Virus record (IMG/VR): IMGVR_UViG_3300046535_000597
Coordinates: 1-36,757 of that record
Origin: a virus
Strand: one strand, 5' to 3'
DNA length: 36,757 nt
Below, in pieces: positions 6,756 to 13,685 of this stretch (positions are counted from its first letter, which is position 1; each line of letters starts with the position of its first letter). The notes under the pieces were generated by a model, which searched no databases, was not told where the DNA came from, and saw only the letters and a program-made list of their open reading frames with translations. The position numbers were made by a program, and so were the translations under genes.

Positions 6756-6859
6756 TTGAGATACCAGGGGCGGCGACGAAGCTTCTGCAACTCAGTGACG
6801 CGCCTCGCGACTCGTTTTCCGCTGAGATGAACTGTGGTCGTGATCTTGATGGGTCTCAT
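6752..6859 (-). CDS. 35-aa basic protein between terminase and portal
   Basis: An ATG at 6859 overlaps the terminase TGA, and the stop overlaps the portal ATG, so the short frame fits exactly between the two genes. The product is 35 residues long and very basic (SGKRVARRV and KLRRRPWYLK). It has no membrane span or cysteines. The exact double overlap supports it being a translated gene. Its function is unknown. A nucleic-acid-binding role or simple translational coupling between terminase and portal are both possible. Confidence 0.55.
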   Translation of the reverse strand: MRPIKITTTVHLSGKRVARRVTELQKLRRRPWYLK

Positions 6860-8286
6860 CCGAACGACACCGCCAACAGCTTCTTCTTCTCCTGTGTCGC
6901 CTCAGACCGATAAGCAATCGTCGCAGCAACAAGCGGCGTGATATCCGAACGCGAGTGCTTCCGCGACCAAGCCCAAGCATCCGCAAGCGTCCGCTGGGCG
7001 GCACCACGAACAGCCGCCTCGAGCGCCTGATCTCCGTCATGGACGATCGTTCCCTGCTCCACAGCGTCGAAGAACGCCCCGCAGGCGCGCGTGTATTCAA
7101 CGGTTCCGATGGTCTCCACCTCGATTCCAGCCTCTTCGAGCTCGTCGAGGAGCGAAGCAGCGGGTCCGCGCTCGTCACAGACGATCCGCACCGGGCGCAA
7201 CTCCTCGATCAACTCCAAGAGGCGCTCCACGATCCAGCCTGTCCCGTCCTCACGGTGAACAAGGCCGATATGGACCTTGTCGCCGACCCTTTTGGCACCC
7301 ATGATCGTCGCCCACGTCCGGATCGGCGACACATCCAGGGACAGGGTCGGCTCCTCCAACTCCACGTCGCCGGCGAGCGAGGACCAATGCTTCACATCGA
7401 ACAAACCCGAGACGGAAGCGTCCGTTGGGGGCCAGTCACCCATCCCGTACAGCTCCACGGCCGCCGTTCGGGGCGGCATACCCGAAATCTCGTCCAAAAC
7501 GGTGTCCTCCGAGATCAAACCGTCGTCCATCGACGGGTTCCCGGCCCTCGCGAGCCGCATATCGCTCAACATCTCGACTGTGACCTCGGATGGGTCGCCT
7601 TCGGCAGACCATTCGTGCCAGGAGACGCGCGGATCGTGCTCGATCCCGCGTTTTCGCATCCTCGCGAAGTTCACGCCGTGCTCATGGACGAACCGATCGA
7701 CCGCCGAACCCGCATAAATCGTCTTTGAGCCGTACTTAGCGGTGGACGCGCGCGTCATCGGCTTCTGCGCGCCAACAACCTTGTCGTTGATGACCATCGC
7801 CTCATCCCAGACCAGCAGATCAGCCGAATAACCGCGCCCAGAGCCCGTCGTGCGCGACTTGAACAGGATCCGGCAGCCCGATTTCAGGTTGATCGACTCC
7901 TGGCCGTTCGCGTGACGGTAGCCACCATGATCCTTCACCTTCGCATGGAGATGTGGCGTGTCCTGAACGAACAGCTCGAGCCGCAAACGGTGATCCTGCG
8001 CGGTCGCAACCTCATGCGCGGTATGAATCACGAGCGGATAGTCGAGCACGAACGCGAAAAATCCCTCGATCACTTGGAGAATGACGCCTTTGCCGTTCTG
8101 GCGGGCGACGTTCAAGCCGTCGTCGGCGCTCGCCCACCGATCTTCGGCGTCCAGGGCGAGCATCGACCGGATAACAAGCTTCTGCCAGTCGAAAAGGTGG
8201 CCGCCAGCCGCCTCCCACCACGCGATCGCGGCGTCGCCGAGAGTTCTAGCGTGTTCTGGCGCCCACGCGAACCGCGGCTCGATCAA
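6856..8286 (-). CDS. terL: Terminase large subunit
   Basis: This 476-aa protein is the ATP-driven DNA packaging motor and nuclease. The ATPase has a Walker A variant RQNGKG (residues 62-67), typical of actinophage terminases, and a Walker B segment LLVWDEA (157-163). The nuclease half has the acidic residues expected of the RNase H fold in SLDVSP, CDERGPAAS and a late SDITPLVAA segment. The start is a TTG that overlaps the HNH gene stop (TTGA). Length is within the usual 450-560 aa range, slightly short at the N-terminus. No small terminase subunit was recognised nearby. Confidence 0.92.
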   Translation of the reverse strand: MIEPRFAWAPEHARTLGDAAIAWWEAAGGHLFDWQKLVIRSMLALDAEDRWASADDGLNVARQNGKGVILQVIEGFFAFVLDYPLVIHTAHEVATAQDHRLRLELFVQDTPHLHAKVKDHGGYRHANGQESINLKSGCRILFKSRTTGSGRGYSADLLVWDEAMVINDKVVGAQKPMTRASTAKYGSKTIYAGSAVDRFVHEHGVNFARMRKRGIEHDPRVSWHEWSAEGDPSEVTVEMLSDMRLARAGNPSMDDGLISEDTVLDEISGMPPRTAAVELYGMGDWPPTDASVSGLFDVKHWSSLAGDVELEEPTLSLDVSPIRTWATIMGAKRVGDKVHIGLVHREDGTGWIVERLLELIEELRPVRIVCDERGPAASLLDELEEAGIEVETIGTVEYTRACGAFFDAVEQGTIVHDGDQALEAAVRGAAQRTLADAWAWSRKHSRSDITPLVAATIAYRSEATQEKKKLLAVSFG

Positions 8287-8837
8287 CTCGAGCGCCTCCG
8301 ATCCCGTTTAGCCGTCGCACAGTTACAACGAACATGTTCCGGACCCGCGATCCGCGTCGGATCACCATCGACATGGCCAAGATGCCACTTCTCACCGGCC
8401 AAAATCCTTGTCTTGCAACGCCAACAGTCGACCAGGCCGGCATCGACAGTGGCCGCGAACTCGCGGCGAGCCTTCCTGTACTGCGGCCCATAGACGACAG
8501 TGTCGTAGCGGCGCTTCTCAACCGTCCGCACCCGATACCGCTCCCGGAGCTCCGCCGCCACACTCGGCGACTTCGGCCGCGAACCAGGACGACGCAACCG
8601 CCTATCCAACATCTCCTCACGATGCCGCTTGCAATACCAATGATGGTTCGACAGGACAGGCTCGTCACAGTCGCCCATCCGGCACAGCTTCACGATCTGA
8701 GGCATCACCCTCGAACAGCCCAGACACATCCCGTCCAACAGATCGCCATGGACGAAGTGCAAGCCGCAGCTCGAGCAGCGAAGCGAACTCTGAACGACAA
8801 AACCGGCTTCCGCCGGCTCAACAGGTGTCTGACGCAT
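8283..8837 (-). CDS. HNH endonuclease, first gene of the late operon
   Basis: This 184-aa protein has an N-terminal zinc-ribbon-like part (CSSCGLHF, CLGC, then CRMGDC and YCKRH). Its C-terminal HNH nuclease domain has a WRCKT Cys pair, the WHLGHVDGD core and the GPEHVRCNC segment. HNH enzymes encoded directly before terminase are common in long-tailed phages. In several they act with the terminase to cut DNA at packaging. That fits the repeat-rich region just upstream. No good ribosome site precedes the ATG at 8837, so the start is less certain than the domain call. Confidence 0.85.
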   Translation of the reverse strand: MRQTPVEPAEAGFVVQSSLRCSSCGLHFVHGDLLDGMCLGCSRVMPQIVKLCRMGDCDEPVLSNHHWYCKRHREEMLDRRLRRPGSRPKSPSVAAELRERYRVRTVEKRRYDTVVYGPQYRKARREFAATVDAGLVDCWRCKTRILAGEKWHLGHVDGDPTRIAGPEHVRCNCATAKRDRRRSS

Positions 8838-8940
8838 ATGTGGGTGTGAGCGTCCCGTCCCAAAACACCGTCACTCAGGACGTACCTCAACATCCCGCAA
8901 CCTACCAGACGAAACCCTAAAACCGGCATCGACTGGAACC

Positions 8941-9146
8941 GGGAAGTGGACTTTTCAGAATCCGCTGACTGCTTCCCGGGTCGCCCTAGAGGGCGACACC
9001 GGGAGCGGGAAGTGGTCGAATAGTGGCCCCCGGGAAGTAGTGGGGAAGTCAGGGAAGTGGTGGGAAGTCCCAGTCATAGACCCAACCGTTCGGGAAGTGG
9101 TCGGGAAGTGGTCGACCCAAACCAGGCCGGGAAGTGGTCGGGAAGT
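8941..9146 (+). repeat. Array of ten GGGAAGT direct repeats
   Basis: Copies of GGGAAGT start at 8941, 9007, 9032, 9043, 9052, 9062, 9092, 9103, 9129 and 9140, all in the same orientation. Four of them (9007, 9092, 9103, 9129) extend to the longer form CGGGAAGTGGTCG. Five of the nine spacings are 9-11 bp, that is one helical turn, which would place bound proteins on one face of the DNA. Such phased arrays are typical of origins, terminase (pac/cos) recognition sites and multi-site operators. Which of these applies cannot be decided from sequence alone. Confidence 0.85.
8975..9003. repeat. Long hairpin within the repeat region
   Basis: GTCGCCCT and AGGGCGAC form an 8-bp perfect stem around a two-base AG turn. 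Flanking CCCGG and CCGGG arms extend the stem to 13 bp with one unpaired A. There is no T-run on either side, so it is not a standard intrinsic terminator. It lies between the first and second GGGAAGT copies. It may be a cruciform or protein site at an origin or packaging region, or a structure in the 5' leader of the late transcript. Confidence 0.65.
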
Positions 9147-9155
9147 CAAACACGA

Positions 9156-9185
9156 ATTATCGTCACAAGCGTCGCCAAACAAGAA
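9156..9185 (-). promoter_or_regulatory. Candidate late promoter
   Basis: On the minus strand a GATAAT hexamer (9156-9161) is a near-consensus -10 element. A weak -35-like TCTTGT lies 17 bases upstream. Transcription would start near 9149, run through the GGGAAGT array as leader, and then enter the HNH and terminase genes. The -10 is good but the -35 is poor, as expected if an activator is required. Confidence 0.4.
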
Positions 9186-9266
9186 AACTACATTCACCCC
9201 TTGACAAAACCGAGCTCGAACCGGTTCTGAGGCATCGTTGACACCACCAACCATTGGGGGGAGGCC

Positions 9267-9662
9267 TCAAAAGCGCGGGCTAGGAGAGCATGGTTTGTAA
9301 CCCGTAAAAGCCCTGCCCCCCGGTAGGAATGCCTGCGGAGCCGTGCGCTGGTGGGAGTGGCGGCGGCGGCTGGTGTGGCGTCTGTGGGGTTGTGGTGGCG
9401 TCGTGCGGCGTTTGTGGTTGGGCGCCGTGGTCTGGGTGGTGGTGCCGGTGTGCTGCTTGGTGGGTGGCGGATCGCGGCCGTCTAGACTTGGGCCCGTGGT
9501 GCGGCGTTGCCCGAGTTCGTCGGCGTGCCTGGCGCCAGCGCCGGCGCTCGAGCTGCGCGACCGGTTGGCGATGGGGTGGCGATGCTGCAGCGACGGGTTG
9601 GCGACTTGCTCGCGACCTACTGGCGACGCGCCGGCGCTCGAGCTGCGCGCGCATAGCAAGAA
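9267..9662. other. GC-rich, strand-biased non-coding stretch
   Basis: About 400 bases lie downstream of the early-operon terminator and have no credible gene. Frames on both strands give Trp/Cys/Gly-rich or Arg/Pro/His-rich products without domain character. From about 9340 to 9500 the plus strand is strongly enriched in G and T over C and A. The stretch contains a 22-bp exact direct repeat (9538-9559 and 9628-9649). I see no tRNA. It may be part of an origin or contain an untranslated RNA. Confidence 0.5.
9538..9649. repeat. Pair of 22-bp exact direct repeats 90 bp apart
   Basis: Bases 9538-9559 and 9628-9649 are identical over 22 positions. Each copy begins GCGCCGGCGC, has a central CTCGAG palindrome, and ends CTGCGCG. 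The copies contain self-complementary segments and could bind a dimeric protein or pair in single-stranded form. The second copy ends 13 bases before the terminator hairpin. I found no third copy in the window. Confidence 0.75.
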
Positions 9663-9678
9663 GCCCGCTTTCGCGGGC
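9658..9678 (-). terminator. Intrinsic terminator of the early operon
   Basis: On the minus strand GCCCGC and GCGGGC form a 6-bp GC stem with a GAAA tetraloop, followed by TTCTTGC. It lies about 35 bases past the stop of the last early gene (9713). The T-rich tail is short, but the GAAA-capped stem is typical. The hairpin is symmetric, so it could also act on plus-strand transcripts. Confidence 0.7.
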
Positions 9679-9712
9679 CTCTTGGTGGTGCGGCTATGAG
9701 GGGGGTGGTGGC

Positions 9713-9979
9713 TTAGCGGCTTATGATCCAATCGTCCAGGCGCTCCCGGTGTTCTTGCGTGAGGATGCCACGGCCTACGGCTTCGGCGGTGACTGTGAGT
9801 AGCGTTCGCTGCTCGCTGTTTAGGTAGGCGTGTTCTTCTGGTACTCCTGCCCATTCGAGCAGCTGCACGTCGCCCGGGTCAATCGCTGCGGTGAGACCTT
9901 GTAGCTCAGCGATTTCGCCATAGCTGATCTGTTCGGCATCGATCTGTGAGCGTAGGTACTCGAGCCGGTTGCTGCTCAT
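9713..9979 (-). CDS. Hypothetical protein, last gene of the early operon
   Basis: This 88-aa protein is mainly helical and acidic, with YGEIAELQGL and GDVQLLEWAGVPEE segments and a C-terminal LTQEHRERLDDWI helix. Its ATG overlaps the TGA of the 28-aa membrane peptide gene upstream. It precedes the terminator at 9658-9678. I recognise no family. Mycobacteriophages and relatives encode many small helical proteins of this size whose role is unknown. Confidence 0.65.
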   Translation of the reverse strand: MSSNRLEYLRSQIDAEQISYGEIAELQGLTAAIDPGDVQLLEWAGVPEEHAYLNSEQRTLLTVTAEAVGRGILTQEHRERLDDWIISR

Positions 9980-11199: not shown

Positions 11200-11236
11200 A
11201 AATAGGGGGAGACGATTCGCGCCCGGGGCGGATCCA

Positions 11237-11309
11237 TCAGAGGACTGCCTAGGTTTGGCGCTATCAGAGACGCGCCTAGGTTTCGCGACTCAGAGGACCG
11301 CCTAGGTTT
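11237..11309 (+). repeat. Three 20-bp iterons
   Basis: Copies at 11237-11256, 11264-11283 and 11290-11309 share TCAGAG followed by a six-base variable part (GACTGC, ACGCGC or GACCGC) and CCTAGGTTT-type ends. Start-to-start spacings are 27 and 26 bp, about 2.5 helical turns. The outer two differ at a single position. A degenerate fourth site with GTCTAGGTCCA lies at 11339-11350. An inverted GTCTAGGTTCA lies near 11070-11080. Confidence 0.85.
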
Positions 11310-11385
11310 GGAGGGCCGGCGCCTTGGTGCCAACGGGCTGTCTAGGTCCACGGAGGCGGCGCCGGCCGCTCCCTGCGAGTCTTGG

Positions 11386-11900: not shown

Positions 11901-12103
11901 GTCCCGGTCCTTTCGTAGAAGTCCGACATCCGCTTCCCAGCAGCCTTGTAGTGACCTCTAATGGTGGCTGGATCTCGACCCATGGCTAGAGCGATCTTTC
12001 TCCAACTGAGTCCTTGTCGGTCATACGAGGTGACTACCTGAAATTGGAGGTCGGTGAGCACCTCCTTGGCGTCGACCCAAAAATCGGGGACAGCGACGAT
12101 CAC
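11897..12103 (-). CDS. Small helix-turn-helix protein (sigma region 4-like)
   Basis: This 68-aa protein (69 if translation starts at the adjacent GTG at 12106) has an LTDLQFQVVTSYDRQGLSWRKIALAM segment continuing into RDPATIRGHYKAAGKRM. This is the layout of a sigma-70 region 4 or LuxR-type helix-turn-helix: a first helix, a turn around GLSW, and a recognition helix beginning DPATIRGH. It probably binds DNA as a regulator. Neighbouring iterons and the RepA-like ATPase make replication or transcription control plausible. GTGA overlap with the upstream stop supports the chosen start. Confidence 0.7.
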   Translation of the reverse strand: MIVAVPDFWVDAKEVLTDLQFQVVTSYDRQGLSWRKIALAMGRDPATIRGHYKAAGKRMSDFYERTGT

Positions 12104-13266
12104 CACGGAATCCCATCGCCGGAGCCATTGTCGTCAGCGTGGTCGTCGTCCTCACGGTACGGCCTCAACGACTCCACAAACTTCGCGCCGCGTGCACCCT
12201 CGATTGCGCGTGCGTAGCCTTCACGGATCAGCGAGTCGATCGCCGCTCTCACGTATTGGCCTTTGCCTCCGATCGCGTCACAGATCGTGTTGCGCCCTTG
12301 CGGGTCGGCACAGTTCTCGATGAAGATGCTCACTCGTTCCATCTTGCCGGTGTACCGGAACGCGCCGTCAGCGGCGAGCTCATGGGTGTGTTCAACCTTC
12401 TCCCAGGAGCCGAACTTGCCGGCGCCGAGGCTCATCTCCCACCGTCCTGTGTCGCCGAACCGTGAGTCTGTGATCTCGAGTCGCACCTTCCCAATATGGT
12501 CTAGGCCGTAGCGTTCGATCGTTTCCAGCGTGAACAGCACCTCGTTCAAGTCGCCTTTGGAACTCGCACCGCGGCCGCGCTTGCTGTCACCATGCCCTGT
12601 GTTGTCGAGGATGAGGGTAGCGATGCCAGCGGCGAACAGCGGATCCACAAGGGCGGCCATGAATTCGGCGTAGTCGTCCGATGAGTTCTCCTCGAGGCCG
12701 AGGTCGCTGAGGTACATGCGCTGGCTGTCGAAGATGACGAGGTCGGCGTTCAGGCACAGCTTGACGAGTTCGTTGCCGTCGTCTTTGCGGAAGCGTGGGA
12801 ATTCGTAGTAGCTGAGGTTCGCTGAGAGCTGCGCTTGTTGGAGTGTGCTCATGTCGCGTCCGTTGATGATCGCCTCGAGCCTGGACGCATAAAGGTCGCC
12901 GCCGTTCTCACGGTCGAACACGACCACCGTGGCGCCGGCGAGCACCATGTCCCCAGCATGGATCAGAGCTCCCAGCGACTTGCCCACCTTTTTCGGTGCC
13001 GCCCAGTAGTGGCGCTTGCCACGTCTGAGCATCAGCTCGGATGCTGCCAGATATTCGGCTGGTGGGATGCCGTGCCGGATCCTGTCGACGAGGTCTAGCT
13101 GCCGTGACCGGACACGATCGGTGAAGTCGCCACGTTTAGCGTCCTCTGGGAGCACGCCGGCTTCTGGGACACGGTATGCGTCGACCTCTGCGTCTTCGAG
13201 GGACTGTCGGGCCGCTTCGTCGTCTGGCGCGAGACCGATCTCGTGGATGGGCCGTAGTTGCGTCAC
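12100..13266 (-). CDS. RepA-like RecA-fold ATPase, probable replicative helicase or loader
   Basis: This 388-aa protein has a Walker A motif APKKVGKS (about residues 90-97) and a Walker B strand ADLVIFDS (174-181). A later LILDNTGHGDSKRGRGASSKGD segment is typical of AAA_25/RepA-type hexameric helicases. The C-terminal ~90 residues look like a winged-helix domain (FIENC, AIDSLIREGYARAIEG). Such proteins unwind or load at phage and plasmid origins. No primase or polymerase is encoded, so it would recruit the host replisome. The GTG start overlaps the upstream TGA. Confidence 0.8.
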   Translation of the reverse strand: MTQLRPIHEIGLAPDDEAARQSLEDAEVDAYRVPEAGVLPEDAKRGDFTDRVRSRQLDLVDRIRHGIPPAEYLAASELMLRRGKRHYWAAPKKVGKSLGALIHAGDMVLAGATVVVFDRENGGDLYASRLEAIINGRDMSTLQQAQLSANLSYYEFPRFRKDDGNELVKLCLNADLVIFDSQRMYLSDLGLEENSSDDYAEFMAALVDPLFAAGIATLILDNTGHGDSKRGRGASSKGDLNEVLFTLETIERYGLDHIGKVRLEITDSRFGDTGRWEMSLGAGKFGSWEKVEHTHELAADGAFRYTGKMERVSIFIENCADPQGRNTICDAIGGKGQYVRAAIDSLIREGYARAIEGARGAKFVESLRPYREDDDHADDNGSGDGIPW

Positions 13267-13685
13267 CCTGTTTTGAGGAGGTCGATGGCGTGCATATCCA
13301 GACGCACCAGCAACCGCTGCTTCGCCCACTTCAACTGCTTATGGTCGATCCGGTCAGGATCCACAGGCTCGCCCTCGAGGAGCTCACAACACGTTCCGAC
13401 GTCCTTTGCGAGGCGCATGGCTACACCGACACGGGCGGGGTGCGGCCACCGCTCCTCTAGCGTTTCAGGACAACACTCCGCACACTCACATGGAACGCCT
13501 GTCTCCTCAGCCAGCAAGTCGGGAGCAATGAACCCGTGGGCTAGTAGCCCATCCACCTTGTCGCGGTGATAGTGGTCAGGGCGTCCACAGGACGGGCATG
13601 GTAGAGGCGTGCTCAAGGGCCGGTCATGGAGGAGGGAGTCTAAGCCACCCTCGGTTTGTGTGCCAACATGCCTGAGCCTTCGCAT
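13263..13685 (-). CDS. Zinc-binding hypothetical protein
   Basis: From the ATG at 13685 the product is 140 aa. A TTG at 13616 would give 117 aa and reduce overlap with the upstream gene. I cannot decide between them because neither has a clear ribosome site. The protein has LPCPSCGRPDHYHRDK followed by a PCECAECC cluster, giving at least two zinc-type Cys groups. Its C-terminus is helical and basic (KQLKWAKQRLLVRLDMHA). It directly precedes the replication ATPase with overlapping ends, so a replication-related role is possible. Confidence 0.55.
   Translation of the reverse strand: MRRLRHVGTQTEGGLDSLLHDRPLSTPLPCPSCGRPDHYHRDKVDGLLAHGFIAPDLLAEETGVPCECAECCPETLEERWPHPARVGVAMRLAKDVGTCCELLEGEPVDPDRIDHKQLKWAKQRLLVRLDMHAIDLLKTG

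Follow-up and report, generated by a model that had tools for sequence, protein, structure and literature searches.

A conserved array of ten GGGAAGT repeats before the HNH and terminase genes of an uncultivated phage, most likely serving to dock the packaging machinery or to control the packaging genes

Gene layout around the array

We have analyzed a virus contig of 36,757 nt, IMG/VR record IMGVR_UViG_3300046535_000597, which at its full length is called here the window. The two ends overlap by 114 identical bases, indicating that the contig represents a complete phage genome, circularised, with a length of 36,643 bp. The host of this uncultivated phage is probably an actinobacterium. A DNA-level search of a phage collection gave no match to the stretch; for comparison we used five related contigs from IMG/VR, three of which, G001 (42.7 kb), G002 and G003, have the repeat array described below.

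All the main genes are carried on the minus strand. Starting from the array, the transcription order is an HNH gene (8837-8283), the gene of the terminase large subunit, TerL (8286-6856), the portal gene (6755-4908, phrog_12) and further head genes, after which it crosses the circle junction to the tail-side genes, an amidase and the early genes, the last one ending at 9713. TerL (476 aa, 6856..8286, phrog_9, E 2.9e-52), whose gene overlaps that of the HNH protein by 4 bp, is closest to the terminases of actinobacterial phages (ca. 32% identity), and a scan of genome contigs with it returned a single remote match, at 27% identity, in a Coriobacteriia MAG. The HNH endonuclease-like protein (184 aa, 8283..8837, minus strand) has a Cys-rich N-terminus and matched annotated actinophage HNH endonucleases by tblastn, with E values down to 2e-10; the Pfam HNH search gave no match, and the fold search was uninformative on an AlphaFold model with a pLDDT of 52. 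Within the first codons of this gene there is a terminator-like GCCGGCGGAAGCCGGTTTT hairpin (8797-8820), identical in four sequences, and G002 carries a 170-bp insertion right after it.

The early operon is closed by another terminator-like hairpin, AAGAGGCCCGC-GAAA-GCGGGCTTCTT (9657..9683, minus strand), which was not picked up by a consensus terminator scan and is present with few base differences in G001. The array lies where the original prediction had placed it, past the early operon and immediately ahead of HNH and TerL. Among the early genes of interest, an AAA_25 (RepA-like) protein is encoded at 12100-13329. No family match to a small terminase subunit (TerS) was found among the scanned proteins, nor any such gene beside TerL; TerS diverges fast, so that one may have gone unrecognised. 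No RHH family was among 25 listed of the 32 Pfam families that matched in 52 small proteins (E <= 0.05), and the regulator candidates come down to one small HTH/sigma-r4-like protein, with no other obvious regulator gene.

The ten-copy array and its conservation

The array consists of ten exact copies of GGGAAGT (core CCACTTCC) within 8941..9146, all on the plus strand, starting at 8941, 9007, 9032, 9043, 9052, 9062, 9092, 9103, 9129 and 9140. The HNH-TerL operon being on the minus strand, its transcript would carry ACTTCCC and not GGGAAGT, and on that strand the unit reads CCACTTCCC(GA). The word appears 15 times in the whole window, both strands counted, against 3.7 expected and a maximum of 11 in shuffled sequences (n=100). 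When 8841-9260 was shuffled locally 2000 times with its dinucleotides preserved, the highest count of any 7-mer was 8, short of ten, and the next densest 7-mer cluster of the window has four. The number, single orientation and place of the copies given in the original prediction are thus exact and far above what shuffling produces. The exact-word tandems found elsewhere are mostly coding repeats with a 12-bp period.

The distances between consecutive copies are 66, 25, 11, 9, 10, 30, 11, 26 and 11 bp, five of the nine falling in the 9-11 bp range, as had been claimed. They are arranged as two 11-bp doublets (9129/9140 and 9092/9103), a run of four copies (9032-9068) and two single copies at 9007 and 8941. 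Helical phasing, which had been proposed for the array, holds inside the doublets and the run of four but not over all ten copies (R = 0.21 at 10.5 bp, p ~0.65). Since the array as a whole is not in phase, the cooperative binding on one DNA face that had been deduced from it is not supported.

The three relatives have ten copies each, with spacings of 11/10, 26, 11/10, 30, 10, 9/10, 11, 25/24 and 66 bp. In G003 most of the units have been altered together, from the 11-bp ACTTCCCGACC to the 10-bp ACTTCCGTCC (ACTTCCC-GACC to ACTTCC-GTCC), a change that leaves short spacings of 10 bp. Identity to the array of the window is 93% in G001, 98% in G002 and 71% in G003. The 103 bp that follow it down to the HNH start codon (8838..8940, minus strand) are the most conserved noncoding stretch, with 97, 94 and 91% identity respectively; they contain a 1-nt indel, indicating that they are noncoding. 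The fourfold-degenerate sites of TerL show only 69, 85 and 62%. Array and downstream leader evolve far slower than these sites, indicating that both stretches are under selection, with the unit itself replaced in G003. A constant copy number and nearly constant spacings, together with a concerted drift of the unit, are as would be expected of sites read by one protein.

A candidate cos boundary and the packaging machinery

Contig G001 starts and contig G002 ends at the homologue of window position 9273, with different terminal bases (CTTATTGG and CTTTTGGG). Strain mixing during assembly would hardly break both contigs at this point, and we discounted it because the two share no long terminal word. 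A landmark of this boundary is a G6 run (9316..9321, minus strand) located 48 nt before what would be the right genome end. When we compared the right ends of 14 actinophage records, mostly with a relative of the HNH protein, 11 of them had a G5/G6 run at 43-57 nt from the right physical end, and it was almost absent elsewhere in those end regions. Only about 0.1% of the points on the minus strand of the window would have a G-run at the distance seen at the candidate boundary. Besides, among the matches listed, 37 of 40 relatives of the HNH protein end within ~310 bp of the right end of the genome record. These data make 9273|9274 the probable cos boundary, 9273 being the left genome end reading on the minus strand. 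The G5/G6 run might possibly be a general cos landmark of actinophages. An Arthrobacter phage has been described with 9-nt 3' cohesive ends (PMC4205034).

Some candidates around the boundary were discarded. The right end of contig G001 differs from the junction sequence and has no G-run; it was rejected as a true right end for the absence of this landmark, and the contig probably stops short. As a second landmark we tried a C-run located +12 to +18 from cos, and dropped it because the window shares it with Sleepyhead only (one of ten references). Contig G003 has kept the array, but without the cos-proximal block and the G-run; this contig and the right end of G001 do not confirm the boundary. 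Across the candidate cos from the ten copies, at ~285-355 bp from it, there is a second array, array B (9557..9627, minus strand), made of seven [A/G]TCGC words exactly 11 bp apart. It is the only run of four or more in the genome, was also detected by TRF, and is partly kept in G001, with four exact copies at the matching place. Two copies of CAGCTCGAGCGCCGGCG flank it. Unrelated mycobacteriophages (L041, L299, L300, L301, L304 and L305) have at least one copy of GACCTGCGG/CCGCAGGTC within ~150 bp of their right cos end.

Counted from the left genome end, the ten-copy array spans +127 to +333. It lies on the terminase side of the candidate cut, and the genes directly downstream are HNH first and then TerL. 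Among the functions that had been suggested for the array a packaging site is the best supported, at a likelihood that we place a little below even; the probable cos is 127 bp from the first copy. Our favored reading, held with the same reserve and based on the arrangements in lambda and SPP1 described below, is that the array would be an unusually large cosB-like part, i.e., the protein-binding part, of the packaging-initiation (cos) region. Its function is inferred, because no TerS was found and because reference cos sites have no such array. In ten reference actinophage left ends the first gene is mostly ~50-130 bp from the end and nothing comparable to the array is present, indicating that cos cutting does not need one.

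According to the cosB-like reading, the terminase, its HNH partner or an unrecognised TerS would load cooperatively on the ten CCACTTCC sites at the left genome end. The loaded protein would keep TerL and HNH positioned at the cleavage site, at a distance of 127 bp, the concatemer would be cut at 9273|9274, and the HNH-TerL end would enter the capsid first. The same stretch would double as the leader of the terminase operon. We infer that the array is bound by a protein, and the candidates to read it may be the Cys-rich N-terminus of the HNH protein or the unrecognised TerS. To our knowledge, the recognition of cos or pac by terminases has hardly been tested in those actinophages that have an HNH partner but lack a recognisable TerS. 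The natural switch of the unit from ACTTCCCGACC to ACTTCCGTCC provides a ready specificity test, as a reader of the array should discriminate both arrays.

Possible operon control or replication origin, and known packaging systems

The most serious alternative is that the array controls the late (terminase-head) operon, either as an operator with multiple sites for a regulator of the phage, or as an RNA leader whose ACTTCCC repeats and hairpin would act on termination or translation. It occupies the stretch that must hold a late promoter, with the early-operon terminator on one side and the first late gene on the other. Just upstream of the first copy there is a conserved AT-rich GATAATTCGT (AATAATTCGT in the relatives; 9152..9161, minus strand), -10-like and made of invariant alignment columns. 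The conserved ATAATTCGT at this place would fit a -10 element and put the array in the leader. A hairpin, GCTCCCGGTGTCGCCCTCTAGGGCGACCCGGGAAGC (8971..9006, minus strand), of 15 pairs and -28 kcal/mol, separates copies nine and ten of the array as counted along the transcript. It is 100% paired in four sequences with four of its 15 pairs changed on both sides; when the arms were slid by 1-3 columns the full pairing with two-sided changes was lost. This is a conserved RNA structure with covariation, as is characteristic of cis-regulatory RNA leaders, if only over four sequences. The compensatory changes indicate that the array is probably in the leader of the terminase operon. The high conservation of the 103 nt before the start codon also speaks for operon control. 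The RNA-level role that had been advanced as a possibility is therefore favored by the hairpin and its four compensated pairs, but not by the global fold of the leader, which is no more stable than shuffles (z = -1.3, not significant). Against operon control, the sigma-70 consensus promoter/terminator scan found nothing, no obvious regulator gene is present beyond the small HTH/sigma-r4-like protein, and ten sites are many for a phage operator. Neither the Rfam scan nor the tRNA scan returned a match. All in all we regard operon control as possible, though less probable than the cosB-like reading. The two roles are not exclusive. The array could be an enlarged cosB and at once the operator or leader of the terminase operon, in which case the packaging proteins that read it would set their own expression, in a fast-evolving system where the units change in concert; we consider this full combination rather unlikely.

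A replication origin, in which the repeats would be iterons for the AAA_25 (RepA-like) helicase or a partner, appears about equally unlikely. Scans with the array core retrieved many other viral contigs with noncoding arrays of GGCGGAAGT, at ~10-11-bp spacing and widespread in unrelated phages (52 loci; e.g., L049:2702-2811, L134, L147:3890-4024, L263 and L224). A RepA-like AAA_25/Prim-Pol helicase gene was found at 41 of the 52 loci with at least four copies, versus 1 of 133 control loci that had one copy or none, and these arrays are probably replication origins. In the Rhizobium phages RHph_N65 (L296:3470-3650) and RHph_Y3_1 (L295:4660-4860) an array comes directly after the primase/helicase gene. 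Their units, GGCGGAGAT and TGGGAACG, differ from GGCGGAAGT, and their AAGTCATTGAAA-like spacers are also found in L049. The unit sequence of helicase-linked arrays seems to evolve in concert.

The core of the G003 variant, CGGAAGTGG, resembles GGCGGAAGT, and the window does encode an AAA_25 protein. However, the likeness is partly selected, because the core of the window's array was itself the query that led to the motif, and the window has no copy of GGCGGAAGT. While these arrays adjoin the helicase gene and are co-oriented with it, usually close after the gene and on its sense strand (38 of 41), the array studied here does neither, being 3 kb away from the AAA_25 gene, antisense and beyond the early-operon terminator. 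The helicase of the window is moreover only weakly related. The common core is only GGAAGT, and as unit, distance and orientation differ we have not classified our array with them. Another candidate for an origin, or for a regulatory element, lies at 11236-11311, downstream of the AAA_25 gene, where a 27-bp unit with AACCTAGGC words is repeated in tandem 2.9 times. Finally, it is very improbable that the array is a remnant of local duplication that now has no function: tandem units can arise by slippage and those of G003 are homogenised, but copy number and spacing are preserved and the array is 93-98% identical in G001 and G002 against 69-85% at the fourfold TerL sites. In sum, the array exists as described and is conserved; most likely the packaging machinery docks on it or the packaging genes are controlled through it.

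The actinophages with a right-end HNH gene (Kumotta, Sleepyhead, BrayBeast and others) share with this phage HNH and TerL beside cos and the G-run ~48 nt before the right end, although their first gene is usually ~50-130 bp from the left end, with no repeat array. In HK97 there is also an HNH protein beside TerL, gp74, that stimulates cos cleavage, but its TerS needs a single 15-bp site (+15 to +29) and no array has been described (PMC11331095, PMC9410871). In SPP1 the pac region has three sets of direct repeats, which span the small terminase gene's promoters together with its start (PMC4737164). SPP1/SF6 and the present phage resemble each other in the direct repeats over the presumed promoter or leader of the terminase genes, in the possible arrays at both sides of the cut (here array B) and in repeats that drift between close relatives; however, SPP1 is a headful (pac) phage, while fixed ends are indicated here. 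The DNA-binding domain of the SF6/SPP1 terminase showed no preference for the pac repeats (PMC4737164), and we have counted this against the cosB-like reading. The cos of lambda consists of cosN and the terminase sites R3-R2-R1 of cosB, on the terminase side of the cut (PMC4856287). Here the predicted sites are ten rather than three, the first one 127 bp from the cut, and there is a hairpin within the array, an HNH gene and no TerS gene found; but as in lambda, short sites are repeated between the cut and the first packaging genes, on the side where the terminase genes lie.
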